From positions 1-44,232 of IMG/VR virus record IMGVR_UViG_3300008740_000016: DNA of 44,232 bases; one strand, given 5' to 3'. This document shows, piece by piece, positions 15,710 to 31,464 of the stretch. The translations under genes were made by a program, and so were the position numbers. The notes under the pieces were generated by a model. It was not told the DNA's origin. It saw only the letters and a program-made list of their open reading frames with translations, and made no database searches. This stretch comes from a virus. How positions within the stretch are numbered: the first letter of the stretch is position 1; each line of letters starts with the position of its first letter.

Positions 15710-17419
15710 ATGGATGGAAATTTAATAGCAGATTATACACAGTGGGAAAGGGGTAAAGATTACCCTGAATTTTTTGATGAAGTAGCTTTATCTACAATTT
15801 CAAAAGGATATCTTTTACCTGGGGAAACACCTAAAAAAGCATATCGTAGGGTAGCAGGGGCAGTTGCTTTTAGGTTAAATAGACCTGATTTAGAATCTAA
15901 ATTTTTTAAATATATTTGGAATGGTTGGATCGGATTAGCTTCTCCTGTTTTATCAAATACAGGGACAGATAGAGGCTTACCTATTTCTTGTTTTGGGGTT
16001 GATACCCCTGATTCAATTCGAGGAATTGGTTTAACAAATGCTGAGTTAATGAAATTAACTTCCCAAGGTGGTGGTGTTGGAATTAGTTTATCTAGAATTA
16101 GAGAAAGAGGAACTCCTATTAGAGGAAATGGTAAAAGTGAAGGTGTAGTTCCTTGGGCTAAAATTTATGACTCAACTATAATTGCTACTAATCAAGGATC
16201 AGTAAGAAGAGGAGCAGCATCAGTTAATTTAAATATTAATCATGGGGATATAGAAGAATATCTTCAAATTAGAAGACCTAAAGGAGATCCAAATAGACAA
16301 TGTTTAAATTTACATCAATGTGTAGCTATTGATGACAATTTCATGAGAAAACTTCATGATAGAGATACTGAAGCTATGAACACGTGGCTTGAAATTTTAA
16401 AATCAAGAGTTGAAACAGGTGAACCCTATATAATGTATACTGATAATGTTAATAAGGATAACCCAATGGCTTATCTAATGAATAACCTTAATGTTTCAAT
16501 GACAAATATTTGTACTGAGATTACACTCCATACAGATGAAGAACATTCATTTATTTGTTGCTTATCTAGTTTAAATTTGGCTAAGTATGATGAATGGAAA
16601 GATACAGATGTAGTTGAAACTGCCGTTTACTTTTTAGATGGGGTAATGGAAGAATTTATCCAAAAAACAAATGGTAAAGAATCTATGATTAGAACTCATA
16701 GACATGCTAAAAAGGGTAGAGCATTAGGTTTAGGTGTAATGGGTTGGCATACATTTTTACAACAAAAGGATTTACCATTTAATTCTATATCTTCAACAGC
16801 TTGGACACATACAGTGTTTTCTCAAATAAAATTAAAAGCAGAATCTGCTTCTAGACAATTAGCAGAAGAATATGGTGAACCATTATGGTGTAGAGGAACA
16901 GGAATGAGAAACACACATTTGTTAGCTATTGCCCCCACAGTATCTAATTCTAGAATTAACAGCTGTTCAGCAGGAATTGAACCACAACCGGCAAATGTTT
17001 ATACTTTTAATGGGGCTAAAGGTACTTTTATAGTTAAAAACCCTGAATTAGTTAAGGTCTTAGAAGAAAAAGGATACAATACTGAAAAAGTATGGGATCA
17101 AATTTTAGTAGATAATGGATCAGTTCAAAACTTACCAAGTAAAATCCTATCGGAGGATGAGAAAGAAGTATTTTTAACATTTCCTGAAATTAATCAATTA
17201 GGATTAGTTCAACAAGCCGCCATCCGTCAGAAATATATAGACCAAACTCAATCGTTAAATTTAAGTTTTGACCCTACTGATTCTCCTAAATGGATAAATC
17301 AAGTACATATGGAATCCTGGAAGCTTGGAATTAAAACATTATATTATCTTCGTACGGATTCAGTAATTAAAGGTGATTTAGGTTCAAGAATGGCAGAATG
17401 TGTGTCTTGTGATGGTTAA
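15710..17419 (+). CDS. nrdA: Class I ribonucleotide reductase large subunit
   Basis: Encodes 569 residues, about 190 shorter than E. coli NrdA. The N-terminal ATP-cone is absent, which predicts loss of overall dATP feedback inhibition. Active-site residues are present: Cys94 ('GLPISCFG'), Asn266, Cys268 and Glu270 ('NICTEI'), the 'CCLSSLNL' cysteine near 283-284, the radical-relay tyrosines in 'LYYLRTDS', and the C-terminal shuttle pair in CVSCDG. It forms an operon with nrdB. A late-type promoter starts 3 nt after its stop. Confidence 0.93.
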   Translation: MDGNLIADYTQWERGKDYPEFFDEVALSTISKGYLLPGETPKKAYRRVAGAVAFRLNRPDLESKFFKYIWNGWIGLASPVLSNTGTDRGLPISCFGVDTPDSIRGIGLTNAELMKLTSQGGGVGISLSRIRERGTPIRGNGKSEGVVPWAKIYDSTIIATNQGSVRRGAASVNLNINHGDIEEYLQIRRPKGDPNRQCLNLHQCVAIDDNFMRKLHDRDTEAMNTWLEILKSRVETGEPYIMYTDNVNKDNPMAYLMNNLNVSMTNICTEITLHTDEEHSFICCLSSLNLAKYDEWKDTDVVETAVYFLDGVMEEFIQKTNGKESMIRTHRHAKKGRALGLGVMGWHTFLQQKDLPFNSISSTAWTHTVFSQIKLKAESASRQLAEEYGEPLWCRGTGMRNTHLLAIAPTVSNSRINSCSAGIEPQPANVYTFNGAKGTFIVKNPELVKVLEEKGYNTEKVWDQILVDNGSVQNLPSKILSEDEKEVFLTFPEINQLGLVQQAAIRQKYIDQTQSLNLSFDPTDSPKWINQVHMESWKLGIKTLYYLRTDSVIKGDLGSRMAECVSCDG

Positions 17420-17422
17420 TAG

Positions 17423-17440
17423 TATTTATAACAAACATTA
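17423..17440 (+). promoter_or_regulatory. Candidate late promoter (TATTTATA class)
   Basis: The 18 bases TATTTATAACAAACATTA are identical to 1177-1194. The ATG of the first leader-sharing gene is 6 nt downstream. No TTTG element is present at the appropriate upstream distance. It would drive the internal-protein and lysis unit. Confidence 0.58.
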
Positions 17441-17446
17441 GTTAAA

Positions 17447-17722
17447 ATGAAAAGATCAGAACTAAAAAAAATAATCAAAGAAGAAATTTTAAAAGAAGTT
17501 AGTGATGAAACTGCAAGAACTGCTAGAGCTACTATGGAGGAAGAAAATGCCTATAGAATGGCTCAAATTATAGCAGATAATGTAGACAAGTATAGTGTAT
17601 CACCTACTTCATTAGGTACTGCCATAGCATATGTTTTAGAAGAAAAATATTTTGGTAAATTATATTTATCATCACTAATAAATTCCATTAAAAAAGAATT
17701 AAAAAATGAAAAAAACTTTTAA
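17447..17722 (+). CDS. Leader-sharing small protein 1 (candidate internal head protein)
   Basis: Encodes 91 residues. The first 16 residues, MKRSELKKIIKEEILK, are a basic/acidic amphipathic helix shared with the next three genes, while the remainder ('ARTARATMEEENAYRMAQII' and 'SLGTAIAYVLEEKYF') has no resemblance to them. A common short leader on otherwise unrelated bodies is the pattern of T4 capsid-targeting sequences on internal proteins. This copy is the most divergent leader and ends EVSDE rather than VLNE. It is first in the unit behind a late-type promoter, and the stop abuts the next ATG. The head-protein role is inference. Confidence 0.7.
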   Translation: MKRSELKKIIKEEILKEVSDETARTARATMEEENAYRMAQIIADNVDKYSVSPTSLGTAIAYVLEEKYFGKLYLSSLINSIKKELKNEKNF

Positions 17723-18004
17723 ATGAAAAAATCCGAACTAAGAAAAATTATCAAAGAAGAAATATCTAAAGTACTAAATGAAAGTTTTGAATCTTTAGAG
17801 AATATAGGAGACGGAATGTATAGACAATCCGAAACCGGGTTTATATTTGGTGATGATGGGGTAGCAGAAGTCCAAATAAAAGACTATGACTCAGAACAAG
17901 ACTATTACGATGCTTTAAAAATTGGAAGAACTTCATTAAGTAGAGCAGGATATGATCCAAAAATTACCACCTATAGTTGGGGGGCATTAATAAAAATAAA
18001 ATGA
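17723..18004 (+). CDS. Leader-sharing small protein 2 (candidate internal head protein)
   Basis: Encodes 93 residues. The leader MKKSELRKIIKEEISKVLNE is followed by a distinct acidic body with a beta-rich look ('MYRQSETGFIFGDDGVAEV', 'TTYSWGALIKIK'). The leader offers I-K-E and L-N-E triplets that fit the (L/I)-x-E cleavage preference known for the T4 prohead protease gp21. The gene starts immediately after the previous stop and overlaps the next gene by 4 nt (ATGA). The body is not recognised. Confidence 0.72.
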   Translation: MKKSELRKIIKEEISKVLNESFESLENIGDGMYRQSETGFIFGDDGVAEVQIKDYDSEQDYYDALKIGRTSLSRAGYDPKITTYSWGALIKIK

Positions 18005-18240
18005 AAAAATCAGAATTAAGAAAAATGATTAAGGAAGAAATATCTAATACATTAAATGAAGATATAGATGTAAAAGCTGTATATAGTTCAACAGATAAGA
18101 TACTTAATGGGTATAATGTATTAAGAGAAAAAATTAAAAGAGAATATGGGTTGAATTCAGAGGAATCTAATAGAATGGGTGAGATTGCAAATCGTGCATT
18201 GAATGAATTAAATTATTTTCTTGGTACTTTAAAAAAATAA
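18001..18240 (+). CDS. Leader-sharing small protein 3 (candidate internal head protein)
   Basis: Encodes 79 residues from ATG 18001. An upstream in-frame ATG at 17977 exists, but 18001 is preferred because it makes the ATGA overlap and places the conserved leader MKKSELRKMIKEEISNTLNE at the N-terminus. The body is all-helical and charged ('VLREKIKREYGLNSEESN', 'IANRALNELNYFLGTLKK'). It is unlike the bodies of its neighbours, so only the leader is shared. Confidence 0.72.
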   Translation: MKKSELRKMIKEEISNTLNEDIDVKAVYSSTDKILNGYNVLREKIKREYGLNSEESNRMGEIANRALNELNYFLGTLKK

Positions 18241-18242
18241 AA

Positions 18243-18638
18243 ATGAAAAAATCGCAATTAAAAAAAATTATCAAAGAGGAAATCTCCAAAGTATTAAATG
18301 AAGATATTAACCAAAGTAAACTAGGAGATATTGCACGATTAATGAAAAGATCGGGTATTGATGTTTTAGATGATGAAGATAATGAAGAGATATTAAAGGC
18401 ACTCAATTATCCTTCTGATTATAGTAATGAGTATAAAGCAAATATGATTATTGATTATTTAGGTGATCATTATTCAATTGAGGGCAGTCCTGAAGAATTT
18501 AAAAAGAATCTTTTAATAGTTCTTAGTAAAACCAAACCTGAGATAGTAGAACCTGGAACACGTATTGGAACTATAAGTCGTGAAGAAGGAGATACATTTT
18601 ATAAATTAACTAAAGACCTGGGACCATTTAGAGTATAA
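18243..18638 (+). CDS. Leader-sharing small protein 4 (candidate internal head protein)
   Basis: Encodes 131 residues. The leader MKKSQLKKIIKEEISKVLNE precedes a body with a helical, UBA-like-sized module ('LGDIARLMKRSGIDVL') and an acidic middle, ending in 'GDTFYKLTKDLGPFRV'. At the DNA level the first 60 bases align closely with those of the two preceding genes, while the rest does not, pointing to leader duplication or repeated gene capture behind the leader. The lysis genes follow 19 nt later. Confidence 0.72.
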   Translation: MKKSQLKKIIKEEISKVLNEDINQSKLGDIARLMKRSGIDVLDDEDNEEILKALNYPSDYSNEYKANMIIDYLGDHYSIEGSPEEFKKNLLIVLSKTKPEIVEPGTRIGTISREEGDTFYKLTKDLGPFRV

Positions 18639-18657: not shown

Positions 18658-18906
18658 ATGAAATTTGTAAGCGACATATTCACAGAAGATAAAAGAGATG
18701 ATAAATATTCATCTAAAAAAACCCTAGGAATTATCTCAGGTATACTTGTATGCCTTGCTTTTATAGGAGATGGTTTCCATTGGTTTACAGTAAACGAAAA
18801 CTTATTTAACTCAATGCTTATATTCTCAGCTACAATGTTAGGAGTATCAACTATTAAAGCATTTGCAAAACCTAAAAATAATGGGGAAAGAAATAACTTG
18901 TCCTAA
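18658..18906 (+). CDS. Holin-like small membrane protein
   Basis: Encodes 82 residues with two hydrophobic segments, 'TLGIISGILVCLAFIGDGF' and 'LFNSMLIFSATMLGVSTI', a charged N-terminus rich in Asp/Lys/Arg and a basic C-terminus. Size and two-helix topology suit a class II or III holin or an antiholin. Its 3' end overlaps the endolysin gene by 26 nt, a common holin-endolysin arrangement. The holin assignment comes from topology and position; no family motif is evident. Confidence 0.62.
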   Translation: MKFVSDIFTEDKRDDKYSSKKTLGIISGILVCLAFIGDGFHWFTVNENLFNSMLIFSATMLGVSTIKAFAKPKNNGERNNLS

Positions 18907-19585
18907 TTGTAACACAACTTTTGAAGTTAGTGTTAATGAAAAAAAAGATTCAAATTATTTATGGATTTTTGATAATGGTCATGGTGGTATTATAGATGGT
19001 GTATACCAAACATCTGGTAAAAGATCACCTGTATGGCCCGATGGTTCTATTTTATATGAAGGAGAATTTAATAGAGCTATTGTAGATAGATTAATGAAAT
19101 TATGTAATGATAAAGGAATTGATTGTGTTAATTTAGTAGATACTCAAGAAGATGTTCCCTTATCTGAAAGAACAGATAAAGCAAACGATATTTACCGCCA
19201 ACAAAGAGATAAAGATGGTAAACCTTGCATTTATGTTTCTGTTCATGCAAATGGTTTTGGTGAAGAACAAGCAAACGGATGGTCAGTCTATACTTCAGAA
19301 GGTGAAACCAAATCAGATAAAATAGCCCAAATTTTATTTGAAAAATCCAGTGCTGAATTTCCAGATGAGTATATGAGAAAAGATACTAGAGATGGAGACT
19401 CAGACAAAGAAGCAAATTTTTGGGTATTAAGAAAAACAGTTATGCCCGCTATACTTAGTGAAAACTTCTTTATGACAAACTACGATAATTGTCATAAGTA
19501 TCTTTTAAGTGAAGAAGGAAGAGATCGAATTGCTAAGATTCATTTTCAAATGATACAAGAGGTAGAAGAGAAAAAATTAGTTTAA
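18881..19585 (+). CDS. Endolysin: zinc-ribbon plus N-acetylmuramoyl-L-alanine amidase
   Basis: Encodes 234 residues from ATG 18881; an in-frame TTG at 18863 is less likely. Residues 1-18 form half of a zinc ribbon ('CPNCNTTFEV'). The rest is an Amidase_3-type zinc amidase: 'WIFDNGHGG' with the first His, 'LYEGEFNRAIVDRL' with the Glu ligand, 'VPLSERTDKAN', 'CIYVSVHANGFG' with the second His, and 'MPAILSENFFMTN' with the catalytic Glu. It would cut the amide bond between MurNAc and the peptide stem at lysis. It has no signal peptide, so release would depend on the upstream holin-like protein. Confidence 0.88.
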   Translation: MGKEITCPNCNTTFEVSVNEKKDSNYLWIFDNGHGGIIDGVYQTSGKRSPVWPDGSILYEGEFNRAIVDRLMKLCNDKGIDCVNLVDTQEDVPLSERTDKANDIYRQQRDKDGKPCIYVSVHANGFGEEQANGWSVYTSEGETKSDKIAQILFEKSSAEFPDEYMRKDTRDGDSDKEANFWVLRKTVMPAILSENFFMTNYDNCHKYLLSEEGRDRIAKIHFQMIQEVEEKKLV

Positions 19586-21642: not shown

Positions 21643-21984
21643 ATGGCTAATTATACCTTCCACAATCCTTCAGGCTCAGCATATTTTGTTCACGAACTTA
21701 TCCCAAGAGAAACAGATGGATATTTTCCAACTTCATCAGCTCAAATATCATACTTTTCAGGTTCAACATTTTCAAACTTAACAAGTTCAGTTACAAACCC
21801 AATAGTAGCATATTGGACAACCGGAGTTACAAATGGAGTAGGAACAGTAAATGGAGGATTTCATTGGGGAATGGTAATACCTGAAGGCACCTCATCTGTT
21901 GATTTTACACCAGGATCATCAATTCCAGTTTCAGAATCAATATTTAGAGGAACAGGTGAATTTACTCTAATATTGACTACTTAA
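21643..21984 (+). CDS. Small beta-rich protein, probable virion component
   Basis: Encodes 113 residues rich in Ser, Thr, Gly and aromatic residues with almost no Lys, e.g. 'NPIVAYWTTGVTNGVGTVNG'. It is predicted to be all-beta with no membrane helix. It precedes two LamG-like proteins with a 1-nt overlap (TAATG), which suggests a shared structural role such as a head decoration or fibre component. The family is not recognised. Confidence 0.62.
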   Translation: MANYTFHNPSGSAYFVHELIPRETDGYFPTSSAQISYFSGSTFSNLTSSVTNPIVAYWTTGVTNGVGTVNGGFHWGMVIPEGTSSVDFTPGSSIPVSESIFRGTGEFTLILTT

Positions 21985-22712
21985 TGGCAACAACAATATT
22001 CACACCATCAATGCTAAGAGGAGCAGGTACTCGGGGAGTACCTGAAGTGCCTGCTGGGTCATCTTATGAAAATACCTACTCAATGGATTTTGATGGAATA
22101 GACGATTATGTAGATTTAACACAACACAATTTAGGAACAACAAGTACTATTAGTTTATGGATAAAACCAGATGCAACAGCAATAGTAACAGCAAAAAATT
22201 ATACAATATTAGGTGAAAATTCATATTCATTTGATTATTTGTTAGCTATAAAATTCAGCACACCAAACCCAAGAGTATTTTTTAGAATAGCAGGTGGTTA
22301 TCTTGCATGGAGCAGTACACCAATAGCAAACACAAATTGGCATAATATTATAATAGTTAGAGATACTTTAACAACTGCGAAATTATATTTGGACGGTGTT
22401 GACCAAGGTTCACCAACTGCTTCAGGTGGTACTTTTAGCGGTGATACTAAATTTAGATATTTATGTACCAATTACCCAACTAATACCCAATTTTTTATAG
22501 GTAACATTGATGAAGTTTCAGCATTTAATAGTGTTTTAACAACTAGTCAAATAACTACAATTTCATCTGGTCCGAGTGATTTAACTTCATTAAGTCCTGT
22601 GGCTTGGTATCAATTCGAAGAAGGGTCAGGTACAACAGCTATAGATTCTGGAACAGGTGGAAACAATGGTACTATTAATGGAGCTACTTATTCAACAGAT
22701 GTACCAACATAA
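21984..22712 (+). CDS. LamG / concanavalin-like virion protein A
   Basis: Encodes 242 residues. After an N-terminal tag 'TPSMLRGAGTRGVPEVPAGS', a LamG-type jellyroll is evident: 'YSMDFDGIDDYVDL', 'STISLWIKPDATA', 'NWHNIIIVRDTLTTAKLYLD', 'FFIGNIDEVSAFNSVLT' and 'WYQFEEGSGTTAIDSGTG'. Such domains bind carbohydrates or form spikes on virions. It is a tandem paralogue of the next gene, with near-identical ends and a divergent middle. A role as a surface adhesin or decoration protein is inferred. Confidence 0.75.
   Translation: MATTIFTPSMLRGAGTRGVPEVPAGSSYENTYSMDFDGIDDYVDLTQHNLGTTSTISLWIKPDATAIVTAKNYTILGENSYSFDYLLAIKFSTPNPRVFFRIAGGYLAWSSTPIANTNWHNIIIVRDTLTTAKLYLDGVDQGSPTASGGTFSGDTKFRYLCTNYPTNTQFFIGNIDEVSAFNSVLTTSQITTISSGPSDLTSLSPVAWYQFEEGSGTTAIDSGTGGNNGTINGATYSTDVPT
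22001..22033 (+). repeat. Direct repeat, 5' ends of the LamG paralogues
   Basis: A perfect 33-bp match between 22001-22033 and 22742-22774, encoding the shared tag around T-P-S-M-L-R-G-A-G-T-R. It marks a tandem gene duplication. Confidence 0.9.
22677..22708 (+). repeat. Direct repeat, 3' ends of the LamG paralogues
   Basis: A perfect 32-bp match between 22677-22708 and 23406-23437, encoding N-G-A-T-Y-S-T-D-V-P-T. With the 5' repeat it brackets the divergent middle of each paralogue and could allow recombination between them. Confidence 0.9.
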
Positions 22713-22724
22713 AGAAATTAAATA

Positions 22725-23441
22725 ATGGCAACAACCACCTACACACCATCAATGCTAAGAGGAGCAGGTACTCGAGGAATACCTGAGATTCCTGCTGGCT
22801 CGTCATTTGCAGATATTTATTCATTAAATTTTGATGGGATAGACGATTCTGTAACGGTCTCAAGTTTTACAACAAGCGGAAACGATTTAACAGTTTCAAT
22901 ATGGCTTAAAGCCGTAAATTTAGGAAGTGGCGACCCAAATGGTGCTTTTGTATATGGAGATGCAAATAATTTTATTTATTACAACCTTAATGAGGTTATA
23001 TATGCAAAAGTAAACGGACATACATCTATATTAGTGGCTAATTCAGGTGGTGTGCCACAAATATTTGGAACAGGAAATTGGCATCATTTAGCAATTACTA
23101 AAACAGGTTCTACTCTTACTTGGTGGGTTGATGGAGCATCCTTTGCAGATTTAGGTACAAGTGGAGCGGGTGGATTTACAATGGATTCAATAGGTGCAGA
23201 TGTTGGTGGTACAGTATATTACTTAGACGGTAATTTGGATGATTTAGCGATTTGGGACTCTGATCAATCTTCAAATATATCAACCATTTATAACGGGGGA
23301 ACTCCTGGAAACTTATCAAGTCTATCCCCATTAGGTTGGTGGCAATTCGAAGAGGGATCAGGTACAACTGCTATAGATTCAGCAGGTAGCAATAACGGAA
23401 CAATAAATGGAGCTACTTATTCAACAGATGTACCAACTTAA
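22725..23441 (+). CDS. LamG / concanavalin-like virion protein B
   Basis: Encodes 238 residues. It has the same N-terminal tag ('TPSMLRGAGTRGIPEIPAGS') and C-terminal block ('GWWQFEEGSGTTAIDS', 'GTINGATYSTDVPT') as the preceding gene. The central jellyroll strands ('YSLNFDGIDDSVTVSS', 'NDLTVSIWLKAVNL', 'NWHHLAITKTGSTLTWWVDG', 'YYLDGNLDDLAIWDSD') are clearly diverged. Conserved attachment ends with a variable middle suggest binding specificities that differ between copies. It is the last gene before the modification cluster promoter. Confidence 0.75.
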   Translation: MATTTYTPSMLRGAGTRGIPEIPAGSSFADIYSLNFDGIDDSVTVSSFTTSGNDLTVSIWLKAVNLGSGDPNGAFVYGDANNFIYYNLNEVIYAKVNGHTSILVANSGGVPQIFGTGNWHHLAITKTGSTLTWWVDGASFADLGTSGAGGFTMDSIGADVGGTVYYLDGNLDDLAIWDSDQSSNISTIYNGGTPGNLSSLSPLGWWQFEEGSGTTAIDSAGSNNGTINGATYSTDVPT

Positions 23442-23524: not shown

Positions 23525-24313
23525 ATGAAGGTATCACATGAAGTCCCAATTCCATATTTAAAACAAAGCAGGGCTTTTAACGATTATGATTACTGTTTAC
23601 CTCATCTTTTAGATGAAAGTAAGGAATATAAGGAATATTTCCAACGATCTAAAGAAATGGGTCGTTATGTTATAATGGATAATTCCTTACATGAATTAGG
23701 AGAACCTTATGATGCTGATAGATTATGGCATTGGATGAATTATTTCAAACCTAATGAATTTATAGCCCCAGATTATTGGCAAGATAAAACAGCTACTTTA
23801 GTTGCAGCTAAAGAATGGATTCGAAGAGAATATCCTGAAGAAACAACCCCAGTAGCAGTAGTTCAAGCCAATAATAAATCAGAAGCATATGAATGTTACC
23901 ACATTTTAAAAATGCAAGGTTATAAAAAAATTGCTTTTAGTTATGGTGCTGATTGGTATTATGATGAAGGGTTAAGTACTACTCCTGATAAGAATAATAA
24001 ATGGGTAACTAAAGCTCATGGGAGATTTAACACTATTAAGGATTTTTATGAAAAGGGTTTAATTTCGGATTATGATAGTATTCATTTATTAGGATGTAAT
24101 ATACCACAAGAATTTAGTTGGTATAAAGATATGCCTTTTATAGAAACAATAGATACTTCAAATCCAGTTATTCATGGTTTAGCAGGAGTAAAATATGAGG
24201 ACTATGGTTTAGAAGAAAAATTACCACATAAAGTTGACAAATTTGAAGGTGAAGCTAAAAATTGGGATATAGTATTACACAATGTAGAAAAATTTAAAGA
24301 ATTTATAAAATAA
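23525..24313 (+). CDS. dpdA: DpdA-like (TGT-family) 7-deazaguanine DNA transglycosylase
   Basis: Encodes 262 residues. The sequence fits a TIM-barrel tRNA-guanine transglycosylase relative: 'YVIMDNSLHELGEPY', 'PNEFIAPDYWQDK' and 'PVAVVQANNKSEAYECY' (a TGT-like V-V-Q-A strand). A late 'SIHLLGCNIPQEF' is followed by 'FIETIDTSNPVIHGLAG', resembling the G-x-G/D-x-x-x-P end of TGT barrels. Phage DpdA proteins swap guanine in DNA for a 7-deazaguanine base. Its place just before queC, queD, queE and folE strongly supports this. Candidate catalytic aspartates lie in 'MDNS' and 'APD', but I cannot fix which ones act. It is smaller than bacterial TGT (about 375 aa). Confidence 0.66.
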   Translation: MKVSHEVPIPYLKQSRAFNDYDYCLPHLLDESKEYKEYFQRSKEMGRYVIMDNSLHELGEPYDADRLWHWMNYFKPNEFIAPDYWQDKTATLVAAKEWIRREYPEETTPVAVVQANNKSEAYECYHILKMQGYKKIAFSYGADWYYDEGLSTTPDKNNKWVTKAHGRFNTIKDFYEKGLISDYDSIHLLGCNIPQEFSWYKDMPFIETIDTSNPVIHGLAGVKYEDYGLEEKLPHKVDKFEGEAKNWDIVLHNVEKFKEFIK

Positions 24314-24319
24314 ATAATT

Positions 24320-24577
24320 ATGCAAACTAAAAATGGAACAGAATATTATTCATTATATGAATATTTAGGTTACCCAGCAGGGCCAGACTTAGGAGAGAAA
24401 ATAAATAAAGTGGCAATTAAAGCCAAACAAGAATATGTAACACAGTATATTGAACAAGGAGGTTATAAGGGAGAAGTATTTTGTTATACTACAAAGTTTT
24501 TAGATGAATATTTTGATAACCAAATGGAGGAAAATTTCTCCCCAGAACCAGATGAATTGGATGATTTACCTTTTTAA
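24320..24577 (+). CDS. Small protein with SSB-like acidic C-terminal tip
   Basis: Encodes 85 residues. The N-terminal part ('YYSLYEYLGYPAGPDLGEKI') is not recognised. The C-terminus, EPDELDDLPF, matches the acidic-hydrophobic tip of single-stranded DNA-binding proteins and closely resembles the end of this phage's gp32 (DDDDDGLPF). It sits between the DpdA-like gene and queC, so it may dock modification enzymes onto proteins that read SSB tips. That role is inference from the last ten residues. Confidence 0.66.
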   Translation: MQTKNGTEYYSLYEYLGYPAGPDLGEKINKVAIKAKQEYVTQYIEQGGYKGEVFCYTTKFLDEYFDNQMEENFSPEPDELDDLPF

Positions 24578-24588
24578 AAAATAAATAA

Positions 24589-25497
24589 ATGAAACAAGCA
24601 GTATTAAGTTTAAGTGGTGGAATGGATAGTAGTACACTATTACTTCACCTATTGGCAAATGATTATAAAGTAACAGCTCTTAGTTTTGATTATGGACAAA
24701 AACATAGAGTTGAATTAGAAAGAGCACAAGAATTAGTAGATTACTTAAATAGTAATTCTGAAGAATATGACGAAGTAACAGGTAATAAACATATTTTTCA
24801 TCCAATTACCTACCAAACCATAAAATTAGATGGTTTATCTCAGTTATTAAACTCAGCTTTAGTAGAAGGAGGAGATGAAGTACCTGAAGGTCATTATGAA
24901 GAAGATAATATGAAAGCAACTGTAGTACCTAATAGAAATAAAATATTTTCTTCAATTATACAATCAGTAGCATTATCAATTGCTAATGAAACAGAATCAC
25001 CTGTTAAAATAGCAATGGGTATTCATGCGGGTGATCATGCAATTTATCCTGATTGTAGGCAAGAATTTAGAGATGCTGATTATAAAGCATTTTGTGAAGG
25101 TAATTGGGAAGCTCAAAGAGTATCATCTTATACACCTTATTTAGATGGAGATAAATTTGACATTTTAAAAGATGGAGAACAATGTTGTAAATTGTTAGGA
25201 GTTGATTTTGATGAAGTTTATAAAAGAACAAACACAAGTTATAAACCAATTCAACACCCCACAGGAAACCACACTTTAAAATATGATACTGATTTTATCC
25301 CTACAAAACCAGAATACAAATGGTACTCTGATTACAAATCAGCTTCATCAGTAGAAAGAATAGAAGCATTTATAAAATTAGGAAGACCTGATCCTGTAGA
25401 ATATGCTGATGAAACAGGACCAGTAGATTGGGAAACAGCAAAACAACACGCAGAACAATTATTATATGATTGGGCAGCAGATAAAGGAAGAGATTAA
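24589..25497 (+). CDS. queC: QueC-like 7-cyano-7-deazaguanine (preQ0) synthase, zinc cysteines missing
   Basis: Encodes 302 residues. The N-terminal PP-loop 'LSLSGGMDSSTLLL' (residues 6-19), 'LSFDYGQKHRVEL', 'VVPNRNKIFSSI' and 'GIHAGDHAIYPDCRQEF' are diagnostic of QueC, which turns 7-carboxy-7-deazaguanine into preQ0 using ATP and ammonia. The usual C-terminal zinc site (S-C-Y followed by C-x2-C-x2-C-x-E-R-x-E-A-F) is altered: S217 lies in 'NTSY', and D248, S251 and S254 precede 'VERIEAF'. All four ligands are therefore lost while the flanking residues remain. The usual 'GxxDPxxY' end is present as 'GRPDPVEY'. It may act without zinc or stop at an intermediate such as ADG. Confidence 0.88.
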   Translation: MKQAVLSLSGGMDSSTLLLHLLANDYKVTALSFDYGQKHRVELERAQELVDYLNSNSEEYDEVTGNKHIFHPITYQTIKLDGLSQLLNSALVEGGDEVPEGHYEEDNMKATVVPNRNKIFSSIIQSVALSIANETESPVKIAMGIHAGDHAIYPDCRQEFRDADYKAFCEGNWEAQRVSSYTPYLDGDKFDILKDGEQCCKLLGVDFDEVYKRTNTSYKPIQHPTGNHTLKYDTDFIPTKPEYKWYSDYKSASSVERIEAFIKLGRPDPVEYADETGPVDWETAKQHAEQLLYDWAADKGRD

Positions 25498-25498
25498 T

Positions 25499-25654
25499 AT
25501 GAAATATCCAGACGCAAAAAAACACCAAATAATAAGTTTTATTAAATCAGGGATTAGAATACTTGGTTATATAATAATACCTTTTGATTTAGTATTAGCA
25601 GCAGGTATTTTAGTATTTAGTGAATTTATAGGAATAGTAGAAGAATTAGTATAA
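25499..25654 (+). CDS. Small membrane protein, unknown
   Basis: Encodes 51 residues from ATG 25499; an upstream in-frame ATG at 25466 would overlap queC by 32 nt and is less likely. One long or two short hydrophobic segments ('GIRILGYIIIPFDLVLAAGI' and 'LVFSEFIGIVEELV') follow a basic start, MKYPDAKKHQ. It lies between queC and queD, overlapping queD by 1 nt (TAATG). Its function is unknown. Confidence 0.62.
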   Translation: MKYPDAKKHQIISFIKSGIRILGYIIIPFDLVLAAGILVFSEFIGIVEELV

Positions 25655-26130
25655 TGGGAAAATTTCAATCAACAAAAATATTTGACAACTACTCAGTTGC
25701 AATTAGACAATGGAAAGCACAACACTCACATTGTCAGTTATTACATGGATATGCTTTAAAATTTAAAGTATGGTTTGAATCTAACACACCATTTGATGAA
25801 AATATGGGATTAGATGACATGAATTGGATTGTAGATTATGGTGGATTTAAAGATGCACCTGTAGGAAATGGTTTAAAATCTTGGATGAATGATATGTGGG
25901 ATCATACCTTATTAATTCAAAAAGATGATCCATATTATGACATATTTGAACAAATGGGACAAATGGGATTAGCTAAAGTACATTTTTTAGAGAAAATGGG
26001 AGCTGAATCTTGTGCTAAATTAGTTTATGATCATTTTAATGATGTTTTATCCAAAACTGATGCTGGAAGATGTAAGGTTGTAAAGGTGGAATGTTTTGAA
26101 AACGATAAAAACTCTTCAATCTATAAATAA
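25654..26130 (+). CDS. queD: QueD, 6-carboxy-5,6,7,8-tetrahydropterin synthase
   Basis: Encodes 158 residues. The PTPS/QueD zinc site is visible in 'HSHCQLLHGYALKF', where the Cys is the catalytic thiol and the His residues bind metal. 'WIVDYGGFKD' matches the M-V-x-D-F-x-x-L/K segment, 'MWDHTLLI' holds the catalytic D-H pair, and 'KVECFENDKNSSIY' the terminal Glu. It converts dihydroneopterin triphosphate, the FolE product, into the QueE substrate. It shares 1 nt overlaps with the genes on both sides. Confidence 0.9.
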   Translation: MGKFQSTKIFDNYSVAIRQWKAQHSHCQLLHGYALKFKVWFESNTPFDENMGLDDMNWIVDYGGFKDAPVGNGLKSWMNDMWDHTLLIQKDDPYYDIFEQMGQMGLAKVHFLEKMGAESCAKLVYDHFNDVLSKTDAGRCKVVKVECFENDKNSSIYK

Positions 26131-26420
26131 TGAAAATATTATTAGCAGTAATAATCTCCTTAATAACTGGGTTCTTTTTTGGTAGACATACAAGATTTAG
26201 GTCTAAAAACTATGGAGTTACTAGAAAAATGTTTTTAACTCTTGAAAGAAGTGAAATAGATAGAAAAATAGATATTGCTTTAGATTTGGAAGATTATGAA
26301 TCTGCAATGATTCTACATAGAAAATTACATAAATTAGATAAAAAAATAAACAGAATTAAACGTAAAGAAGAAAGAAAAAATGCACGATACAAAATTAATG
26401 GAAGGAATAAAAAGAAATAA
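26130..26420 (+). CDS. Membrane-anchored protein with UVR-like helical hairpin
   Basis: Encodes 96 residues. The N-terminus, 'ILLAVIISLITGFFFGRH', is a membrane anchor. The centre ('IDIALDLEDYESAMILHRKL') resembles the two-helix UVR motif of UvrB/UvrC, which mediates protein-protein contact, and the C-terminus is very basic. It sits in the que operon and overlaps queE by about 41 nt if queE starts at 26380. Function unknown; the UVR resemblance is a pattern match only. Confidence 0.58.
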   Translation: MKILLAVIISLITGFFFGRHTRFRSKNYGVTRKMFLTLERSEIDRKIDIALDLEDYESAMILHRKLHKLDKKINRIKRKEERKNARYKINGRNKKK

Positions 26421-27243
26421 ATATTATTATGATACTGACAGAAACAAACCATTTGAGTCTACTCCAGGGGTATTAAAACGAATAGAAGATTATACTAAAG
26501 TATTACCCATTTGTGAGGTATACCGGTGTGTTCAATCAGAAGGTAGCAGATTTGGTCGACCCACAATAGCAGTCAGAACAACCGGCTGTACTCATAGATG
26601 TTATTTTGGAGAAGGTGGATGGTGTGATAGTTGGTATACAAGTATCCATCCAGAAAAAGGAACATTTTGTTTTAATGATATTATAAAAATATATGATGAA
26701 AATCCTCATGTAGAAGAAATGATGTTAACAGGCGGTTCTCCAACAATGCATAAAGCATTAGTAAATGAAATAACACATTTTGCTAAAAAAAGAGATATAT
26801 TTGTTACAATTGAAACTGAGGGTTCTCATTTTTTAGAAACTGATTATCCAATTGATTTAATTTCTTTATCACCAAAATTCTCAAATACAATTCCACAATT
26901 AGGAACCAAGACACCTAAAGGAGTTGATGTAGATGAAAGAATGATCAAACAACACAATAAATTTAGATTAAACATTGAAGCCATAGAAAAAACACTTCAA
27001 TACCATAAAGATTATCATTTTAAACCAGTGTGGGATGGCACAGAAGAAAATTTAAATGAAATAGAAGAATTTAGAAGAGGATTAAGTATCCCTAAAAATA
27101 AAACATTTATAATGCCCGCAGGAGATACAAGAGAAGAATTAATTAAAATGTATCCCTTAGTATTTGAAATGTGTGCTGAAAAAGGATACAATATGACAGG
27201 TAGAGATCATATTATTGCTTACGATACAGAAAGAGGTGTCTAG
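26380..27243 (+). CDS. queE: QueE, 7-carboxy-7-deazaguanine synthase (radical SAM)
   Basis: Encodes 287 residues from ATG 26380; ATG 26398 is an alternative with less overlap. 'CVQSEGSRFGRPTIAVRTTG' is the QueE substrate/fold signature. The cluster cysteines are Cys70, Cys74 and Cys82 in 'CTHRCYFGEGGWCDSWY', a C-x3-C-x7-C spacing rather than the canonical radical SAM C-x3-C-x2-C. 'MMLTGGSPTMH' is the SAM-binding GGE/GGS-type strand. It makes CDG from carboxytetrahydropterin, between QueD and QueC in the pathway. Confidence 0.9.
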   Translation: MHDTKLMEGIKRNKYYYDTDRNKPFESTPGVLKRIEDYTKVLPICEVYRCVQSEGSRFGRPTIAVRTTGCTHRCYFGEGGWCDSWYTSIHPEKGTFCFNDIIKIYDENPHVEEMMLTGGSPTMHKALVNEITHFAKKRDIFVTIETEGSHFLETDYPIDLISLSPKFSNTIPQLGTKTPKGVDVDERMIKQHNKFRLNIEAIEKTLQYHKDYHFKPVWDGTEENLNEIEEFRRGLSIPKNKTFIMPAGDTREELIKMYPLVFEMCAEKGYNMTGRDHIIAYDTERGV

Positions 27244-27379
27244 AGAAGAAGCATTAGAAATATTAGAAGAAGTAAAAGAAAATGTCCATACTTGCTGTGC
27301 TATAACAATGGAACCAGATGAAGTATTAGATTTATTAGAAAAATTAGAAGAATTTATAAAAAATGAAACAACTGATTGA
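27236..27379 (+). CDS. Small acidic helical protein with GTG start
   Basis: A 47-residue frame fills the gap between queE and hpt, overlapping the end of queE by 8 nt and the start of hpt by 17 nt. It starts at GTG 27236, with AAGAGG directly in front. The protein is acidic and helical ('REEALEILEEVKENVHTCC', 'PDEVLDLLEKLEEFIKNE') with a Cys-Cys pair. There is no ATG start, so it is a moderate call. Confidence 0.45.
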   Translation: MSREEALEILEEVKENVHTCCAITMEPDEVLDLLEKLEEFIKNETTD

Positions 27380-27875
27380 TCCACAAGAATTACAAATTAA
27401 AATTAAAATCTTAGCAAAACAACTGTCTGATGACCATAGAGATAGCAAAACACCTGTGGTAGCAGTTTGTATATTAAATGGTGGTTTTATGTTTTTTACT
27501 GATTTTGTAAGAGCAATGCCTATAGATTTAGAATGTGGTTTTATGAGAGTAAAATCTTATGCTTCTAAAAGAAAACAAGGGGACCTTCAGATTACAAAAG
27601 ATTTAGAAACTCCTATAAAGGGAAAACACGTTTATATAATTGATGATATTTTTGATACTGGTAATACAATGAAAGCAGTTGTTGACTATTTAAGAGTTAA
27701 AAAACCTAAATCCTTAAATATTGTTACCTTATTAAAAAGAGAATCATCCCCTACTTTTGATTTAGAATATCCTTGTTATAATGTTTTAGAAATAAAGGAT
27801 GAATGGGTAGTAGGTTATGGTTTGGATGATGATAAAGGGTTATGTAGAAATTACAATACTATTTATGAAGTTTAA
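27363..27875 (+). CDS. hpt: Hypoxanthine(-guanine) phosphoribosyltransferase
   Basis: Encodes 170 residues. The PRPP-binding signature is 'VYIIDDIFDTGNTM'; the N-terminal 'VVAVCILNGGFMFFTDFVRA' and the C-terminal base-binding 'EWVVGYGLDDDKGLCRNY' match HPRT. It transfers phosphoribose from PRPP to hypoxanthine or guanine, feeding GMP and hence GTP, the FolE substrate. Placed inside a 7-deazaguanine operon, it could also recycle the guanine released when the DpdA-like enzyme exchanges bases, or act on a deazapurine base. The last two roles are inference. Confidence 0.88.
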   Translation: MKQLIDPQELQIKIKILAKQLSDDHRDSKTPVVAVCILNGGFMFFTDFVRAMPIDLECGFMRVKSYASKRKQGDLQITKDLETPIKGKHVYIIDDIFDTGNTMKAVVDYLRVKKPKSLNIVTLLKRESSPTFDLEYPCYNVLEIKDEWVVGYGLDDDKGLCRNYNTIYEV

Positions 27876-27907
27876 TTTGGATTCTATTAAAAAAATTATT
27901 ATATTTA
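27876..27907 (+). promoter_or_regulatory. Promoter upstream of folE
   Basis: TTTG at 27876-27879, 20-nt spacer, TATATTTA at 27900-27907, 19 nt before the ATG at 27927. A second promoter within the modification cluster, so folE and the downstream polymerase genes can be expressed apart from dpdA-queE. Confidence 0.62.
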
Positions 27908-27926
27908 CCTAAAAATTAATTATTAA

Positions 27927-28625
27927 ATGAGCGAAGAAAACAAAAGAAGAAAATACCACACTGATATTGAATGTGTTAAGGAAGGTTTTGCTAATGGGGT
28001 AGCAGCAGATCATCCTCTTAATGAAGAAGAAAAACAAGCAATGATAGATGAAGCAGCTATTCATTATGGTAAATTCCTTACAGCACTAAAATGTGATTGG
28101 CAGAATGACCCAAATTCAATGGAAACCCCAAAAAGAGTAGCTAAAGCCTATGTTAATGATTTATGGGCAGGTAGATACAATGAACTATCAGGTGTAACAT
28201 CATTTCCATCAGATGGTTATCAAGGAATTGTTTTAGAAAAGGACATACCAGTAGTATCACAATGTTCACACCACCACCAAACAATTTTAGGAAAATGCCA
28301 TATTGCTTATATACCTGGAGAAGATGGTAGGGTAATTGGATTATCTAAATTAAACAGAATAGTAGATCATTTTGGTAGAAGGGGAGCTATTCAAGAACAA
28401 TTAACAATGGCTATACACAATGCAGTTAATAAAGTAGTAGAAAAAAATGTGGGAGTAATGGTAGTTATGCAAGCAACCCATAATTGTGTTTCTTGTAGAG
28501 GAGTTAAACATATGGGAGCAAGTATGATTACATCAGAAGTAAGTGGTGTATTTTCGGAACATGAAAAAACAGCTAAACAAGAAGTAATGCATATGATTGG
28601 ATACGGATTAGATGCTTACAGATAA
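27927..28625 (+). CDS. folE: GTP cyclohydrolase I
   Basis: Encodes 232 residues. The N-terminus up to about residue 40 is a charged extension. The catalytic core has 'CSHHHQTILGKCHIAYIP' with the zinc ligands Cys113 and a following His, 'IGLSKLNRIVDHFGRR', 'QEQLTMAI' and 'THNCVSCRGVKH' with the third ligand Cys187. It converts GTP to dihydroneopterin triphosphate, the first step toward preQ0. The gene has its own promoter. Confidence 0.92.
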   Translation: MSEENKRRKYHTDIECVKEGFANGVAADHPLNEEEKQAMIDEAAIHYGKFLTALKCDWQNDPNSMETPKRVAKAYVNDLWAGRYNELSGVTSFPSDGYQGIVLEKDIPVVSQCSHHHQTILGKCHIAYIPGEDGRVIGLSKLNRIVDHFGRRGAIQEQLTMAIHNAVNKVVEKNVGVMVVMQATHNCVSCRGVKHMGASMITSEVSGVFSEHEKTAKQEVMHMIGYGLDAYR

Positions 28626-30890: not shown

Positions 30891-31144
30891 GTAAACAATC
30901 AATTAGAAAAGAACATTCTATTTATTTAAATGGGGAGTTACTTGAAAAAGATGAAATGTTGGAAATATCTGAAGAATTTACAGAAGCAGAAGAACAACGT
31001 TTTAGAAAAATGCTCCAACAAGGAGGAAAAATAAAGATCCAAGGAAATCTTTATGAAATTAGAAAATCAGAATATAAAATAAGAAATAGTAGAGGGGATT
31101 ATGAAAAACCCACAATATTAAAAAAACCTGAAGACTGGGAATGA
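30884..31144 (+). CDS. Unknown protein inserted between the DNA polymerase halves
   Basis: Encodes 86 residues, charged, predicted alpha-beta ('EISEEFTEAEEQRFRKML', 'GGKIKIQGNLYEIRKSEYKI'). It shows no homing-endonuclease (LAGLIDADG, GIY-YIG, HNH) or intein motif. It overlaps the polymerase N-part by 7 nt and the SET gene by 4 nt (ATGA), so translation is likely coupled. It might help the halves assemble, but nothing in the sequence shows this. Confidence 0.66.
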   Translation: MLSKQSIRKEHSIYLNGELLEKDEMLEISEEFTEAEEQRFRKMLQQGGKIKIQGNLYEIRKSEYKIRNSRGDYEKPTILKKPEDWE

Positions 31145-31464
31145 AACAAGAAAACTATAGACCACTACCTGATAATTTAACTATCAAAGAATCGAAGATA
31201 GAAGGATTAGGATTATTTGCAACAGAAGACATTGATAAGGGAGATTATATTGGATTTACCCATTTTTACAGTGAAGGTCACCCTGACAACTATATTAGGA
31301 CTCCTTTAGGGGGTTTCATAAACCATAGTGAAGATCCTAATTGTGAATTATTTGATTCTAAATTTAGAAACAAACTAAAATCCCTATTTTTGATATCTAA
31401 AAAAGATATTAAGGTAGGAGAAGAATTAACCCTAAAATATAATCTATACAACCCAGAGGAATGA
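31141..31464 (+). CDS. SET-domain protein (putative lysine methyltransferase)
   Basis: Encodes 107 residues, essentially one SET domain. The opening is 'IEGLGLFATEDIDKGDYIGF', then 'GGFINHSEDPNCEL' with the N-H-S cofactor/knot motif, and 'KVGEELTLKYN' with the G-E-E-L-T-x-x-Y catalytic end. Such domains methylate lysines with SAM. There is no separate post-SET cysteine cluster. The gene lies inside the split polymerase gene with ATGA overlaps on both sides, so a partner in the replisome or a host protein is a possible substrate. The target is unknown. Confidence 0.84.
   Translation: MKQENYRPLPDNLTIKESKIEGLGLFATEDIDKGDYIGFTHFYSEGHPDNYIRTPLGGFINHSEDPNCELFDSKFRNKLKSLFLISKKDIKVGEELTLKYNLYNPEE

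Follow-up and report, generated by a model that had tools for sequence, protein, structure and literature searches.

Four consecutive genes of an uncultured T4-related phage encode proteins with a common N-terminal leader of ~20 residues on mutually unmatched bodies, and this leader is very probably a cleavable head-packaging propeptide that is cut by an S77 (gp21-type) protease, with the bodies as head cargo. The four ORFs lie at 17447-18638 (+ strand) of the window, i.e., the whole of IMG/VR virus record IMGVR_UViG_3300008740_000016 (44,232 nt, positions 1-44,232). A capsid-targeting, protease-cleaved leader had been proposed in a preliminary description of the DNA; it is now strongly supported by comparison of related sequences, namely by the junction motif, leader swaps, S77 co-occurrence, head-operon location, a late motif and cysteine depletion. 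Within the window, none of the four bodies matches a known family (Pfam, PHROGs) and head genes are absent (the record is a fragment). The principle is known; the leader class is new and its repertoire is unusually large.

The Leader Cassette and Its Flanks

The leader consensus is M-K-(K/R)-S-(E/Q)-L-(R/K)-K-(I/M)-I-K-E-E-I-. With a slash marking the predicted cut, leader protein 1 (91 aa, 17447-17722, +) starts with MKRSELKKIIKEEILKE/VSDE and would be cut after residue 17 (base 17497); leader protein 2 (93 aa, 17723-18004, +) starts with MKKSELRKIIKEEISKVLNE/SFES, leader protein 3 (79 aa, 18001-18240, +) with MKKSELRKMIKEEISNTLNE/DIDV and leader protein 4 (131 aa, 18243-18638, +) with MKKSQLKKIIKEEISKVLNE/DINQ, with predicted cuts after residue 20 (bases 17782, 18060, and 18302, respectively). 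The (L/I)-x-E sites noted earlier are found at residue 20 in genes 2-4, but gene 1 has no LNE there; its (L/I)-x-E is L-K-E at residues 15-17. The upstream flank is the ribonucleotide reductase large subunit gene nrdA (15710-17419, +; 74% identity to nrdA of Flavobacterium phage vB_FspM_immuto). The unit was said to precede lysis genes, and an N-acetylmuramoyl-L-alanine amidase (endolysin) gene does follow at 18887-19585 (+; Pfam Amidase_3 E = 3e-22, PHROG 435 endolysin E = 1e-27).

Leader pairs share 10-17 identical residues among residues 2-20, and more than six are shared in just 8 of ~85,000 other ATG-started 20-mer pairs on the + strand of the window; two of these eight share 15-16 residues. 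Two tandem paralogous Laminin_G_3 lectin-like proteins are encoded at 21984-23441 and probably account for the two pairs of starts outside the leaders with at least seven shared residues. As described earlier for four genes with unrelated bodies and ~60 homologous bases at each start, the leader DNA is identical at 44-52 of 60 positions between genes, and BLASTP of body against body gave nothing better than E = 0.4 among the four window bodies; the body length of 55-110 aa is corrected to 59-111 aa counted after residue 20. Each leader pair differs by 3-6 synonymous codon changes while the peptide is kept, and selection thus acts on the leader peptide. This argues against the reading of the leaders as products of recent DNA duplication at a recombination hot spot, kept by a common translation start and without protein function. 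The tandem array, with near-zero spacing, overlaps and a gene content that varies between relatives, would fit such duplications, but the same peptide is also found in very diverse contigs and we regard this origin as highly improbable.

Cysteine is absent from each of the four window proteins. A low-depth structure model of leader protein 4 is mostly helical, and a fold search with it found no significant match. An amphipathic-helix leader was considered but not supported, the 20-mer consensus being not unusually amphipathic. Homologs of body 1 were found only in two near-identical contigs plus one weak relative, and those of body 2 in two near-identical contigs only. Body 3 is conserved in a variant cassette of record L078 (9341-9580), and body 4 has 52% identity to L078 9583-10149; besides near-identical contigs, the homolog searches with bodies 1, 2, and 4 returned one more distant relative at most.

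Relatives of the Window Phage

Where it overlaps the window, the 45-kb record G009 shows 99.9% identity to it. The window carries replication genes, nrdB-nrdA, queuosine genes, GroES-GroEL and glycosyltransferases, and its gene order is broadly that of immuto and of two uncultured records, G047 (155 kb) and G037 (100 kb). A small SET-domain protein is encoded at 31141-31464. All three syntenic relatives encode S77 protease and gp23 capsid genes, from which we infer an S77 protease and leader cleavage in the window phage as well. In G047 a membrane-protein gene directly follows nrdA with no leader genes between, and L078 has a different leader-gene set at the window's site (two bodies in common, two different); the cassette is therefore accessory.

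Distribution of the Leader and the Junction Motif

Related phages were searched for the leader, a check suggested in the preliminary description, by an IMG/VR pattern scan with a regular expression that fixed residues 1-14 only. The scan gave 89 matching stretches, which together with fetched regions yielded 169 distinct full-length proteins with this leader (class A); at E ≤ 1e-3 their bodies form 141 clusters, a maximum for the number of true families since remote homology lies outside the clustering. Up to seven copies are found in one stretch and up to 10 genes in one record. In cellular genomes, a scan found the leader in no more than three contigs, all from one metagenome bin, and gave no host link. 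Literature searches for the leader strings, or for capsid targeting together with metagenomes in T4-like phages, returned nothing relevant. Searches of the leader-protein bodies with Pfam, PHROGs and PADLOC gave mostly weak or unnamed matches, those to ADP-ribosyltransferases (ART) excepted.

In 82 of 141 leaders an (L/I)-x-E motif ends exactly at residue 20, and in 37 more at residue 16, 17, or 19, compared to 0-4 of 141 (about one) at body positions; the region at residue 20 was unconstrained by the search expression. Sequence information is 1.42 bits at residue 20 but drops to 0.36 at residue 21 and ~0.1 beyond. About 10 of the 141 leaders have no (L/I)-x-E at residues 15-30.

Leader Swaps and Polyproteins

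A second leader class (class B), M..ILxEEFxRMQxLAGIITE, is likewise carried by differing bodies. In G017, G037, and G022, class B genes occupy the interval between the protease and scaffold genes. Loci of the class are L127 10255-11267, L138 12293-13676, and L131 10484-11062, from three uncultured records with this placement, and two copies in immuto (QQO91720.1, 25061-25456; QQO91867.1, 111675-112139).

All fetched DNA was also searched for body homologs without the class A leader. An ART-like body, found outside the window, occurs in 15 such contexts, behind MIKLxDILNE-type or other leaders or internal to proteins of ~500-1274 aa. In 14 of the 15 an (L/I)-x-E directly precedes the body; the exception reads M-N-E. 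Large polyproteins that contain the ART-like segment along with numerous (L/I)-x-E sites are encoded at L191 2434-5328, L198 2428-4824, L199 1216-5040, and L193 1414-4842; the sites lie between apparent domains, and three of the four polyproteins inspected have no cysteine. S77 genes are present in two large records that carry the ART-like body. One homolog (L136 577-1053) scored 29.4 bits against Pfam Tox-ART-HYD1 (gathering score 25), and the others were below that cut-off. The model of this body has a pLDDT of 69, and a fold search found no PDB match at E ≤ 0.001.

These swaps bear on whether the leader is instead an uncut docking helix for an intracellular complex (polymerase, ribosome or scaffold), with proteins that act late in the cell only. 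The leader is charged and several cassettes, the window's included, lie far from head genes, as such a helix would allow. Against it, conservation stops at the boundary with an (L/I)-x-E that persists behind replacement leaders and in front of bodies inside polyproteins, and the proteins show a virion-like cysteine depletion (below); we consider the docking helix improbable.

Co-occurrence and Position Relative to Head Genes

Counted over leader-bearing records only, an S77 protease gene was found in 21 of 49 and a gp23 gene in 16 of 49; the records are mutually related, and per-genome counts are thus not independent. Among leader-bearing records above 60 kb, 8 of 10 encode S77. The remaining two probably lack head genes through truncation: G003 breaks off within the portal gene, and the start of G019 lies 3 kb ahead of the tail tube gene. 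Class A leader genes are found between the protease and scaffold genes of G034 (eight genes), G043, and G033, and two lie just after the capsid gene in G010. The capsid proteins had also been proposed as a place to look for the same cleavage motif: (V/I)-x-E is present in all 18 recovered, partly by construction since the motif search included that position, and in the one capsid protein aligned to T4 gp23 it lies near the mature T4 N-terminus.

The location beside scaffold and protease would also suit proteins that are tagged and cut but belong to the head structure or core (scaffold-like) and are not ejected effectors, and in T4 the prohead protease also processes core proteins (PMC9026906). 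Only the last step of the preferred explanation is varied here, and the two probabilities overlap. The ~140 mostly non-homologous bodies, their variable presence and the ART-like bodies are typical of accessory cargo, however, and a structural role seems rather unlikely to us.

Late Motif and Cysteine Content

The motif TATTTATA is present at 17423-17430 (+), 24 bp ahead of the first leader gene. As regards the late-type promoter proposed earlier, this motif is the T4 late box TATAAATA in reverse complement. In eight related records TATTTATA is found 16-40 bp upstream of 28 of 139 late head/tail genes and 13 of 45 class A leader genes, but of only 4 of 162 early/metabolic genes; at operon starts, it precedes leader genes in 8 of 13 cases vs. 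3 of 49 for early genes (p = 5e-5). Judged by its placement, TATTTATA is the form upstream of late genes in this phage group. The T4 late box TATAAATA in T4 orientation was tried as the motif in the same eight records and rejected for lack of enrichment, and a literature search found no pairing of TATTTATA with a phage late promoter. Copies of TATTTATA in the window are at 1177, 17423, 21620, 33157, and 39398.

Cysteine-free proteins make up 132 of 141 with leader A and 15 of 17 with leader B, compared to 14 of 131 cytoplasmic proteins. The leader proteins contain 0.11 cysteine per 100 residues vs. 1.03 for cytoplasmic proteins of the same phages. The virion-assigned set contains 0.35, a mean raised by terminase (1.15) and protease (1.79), which are not expected in the finished particle; the other families of this set are at 0-0.45. 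Cysteine depletion is independent of leader sequence and gene position, yet it is a correlation. The mean charge of the leader-protein bodies is near zero.

Proposed Function

A cleavable head-targeting propeptide is the simplest account of these results, with T4 supplying the mechanism; packaging, cutting and ejection are put forward by analogy. The four window ORFs would be late genes for small head-cargo proteins, and the shared leader would draw each precursor into the assembling prohead. A gp21-type S77 protease would then cut after (L/I)-x-E at residue 20 (genes 2-4) or 17 (gene 1) and free the body inside the head. Like the T4 internal proteins, the bodies would most likely be ejected along with the DNA and turn against the host immediately.

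T4 carries anti-restriction proteins in its head, and few such proteins have a known function. An anti-restriction role of the bodies, perhaps against modification-dependent restriction, is a guess. The window encodes 7-deazaguanine (queuosine-type) synthesis genes at 23525-28625 (QueC, QueD, QueE-like, and FolE), and the same locus has a homolog (35% identity) of an immuto gene annotated as dpdA. With these synthesis genes, the phage DNA may carry 7-deazaguanine; an anti-Type IV role would then be plausible, again as a guess.

On balance we favor, with some reserve, a wider reading in which the prohead-protease site is a universal joint, so that cargo may be carried either as a tagged small gene or as a polyprotein segment. 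This reading draws on the several swappable leader classes and on the polyproteins, which are large, mostly cysteine-free and joined at (L/I)-x-E sites. If it holds, the leader would be a key for mining about a hundred unknown families of head-delivered effectors. If the leader is a head-packaging tag, it marks ~140 candidate head-delivered proteins, nearly all of unknown function and each directly testable, in environmental relatives of a Flavobacterium phage, and the leader itself could serve protein delivery.

Comparison With Known Systems

In T4, gp21 removes capsid-targeting propeptides of 10-19 residues with the specificity L/I-x-E (PMC9026906), and each of the injected Ip1-3 inhibits a GmrSD restriction enzyme (PMC12373910). 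The leader proteins resemble T4 IPI-III/Alt (PMC9026906, PMC12373910) in the short shared N-terminal leader, the unrelated small bodies and the (L/I)-x-E junction, in the S77 protease and gp23-type capsid (here in relatives), in the variable tandem loci and in ADP-ribosyltransferase-like cargo. They differ in having an apparently distinct leader of ~20 residues, ~140 body clusters with up to 10 class A genes per record, and another leader class (M...RMQxLAGIITE) alongside; the phages are related to Flavobacterium phage immuto. T4 internal proteins are described as basic, whereas the bodies studied here are not.

In phage P1, the DarB/Dar system (PMC9024508) is similar in that an N-terminal signal suffices to package a reporter and the cargo is anti-restriction; the head-assembly scheme is different, and the paper describes no common leader of this kind. 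The polyvalent proteins of phages (PMC5512222) are multidomain proteins, ART domains included, that are predicted to be packaged and injected. In contrast to these, the domain joints found here have sites of the prohead-protease type, and a domain of the polyproteins is also encoded on its own as a tagged gene.
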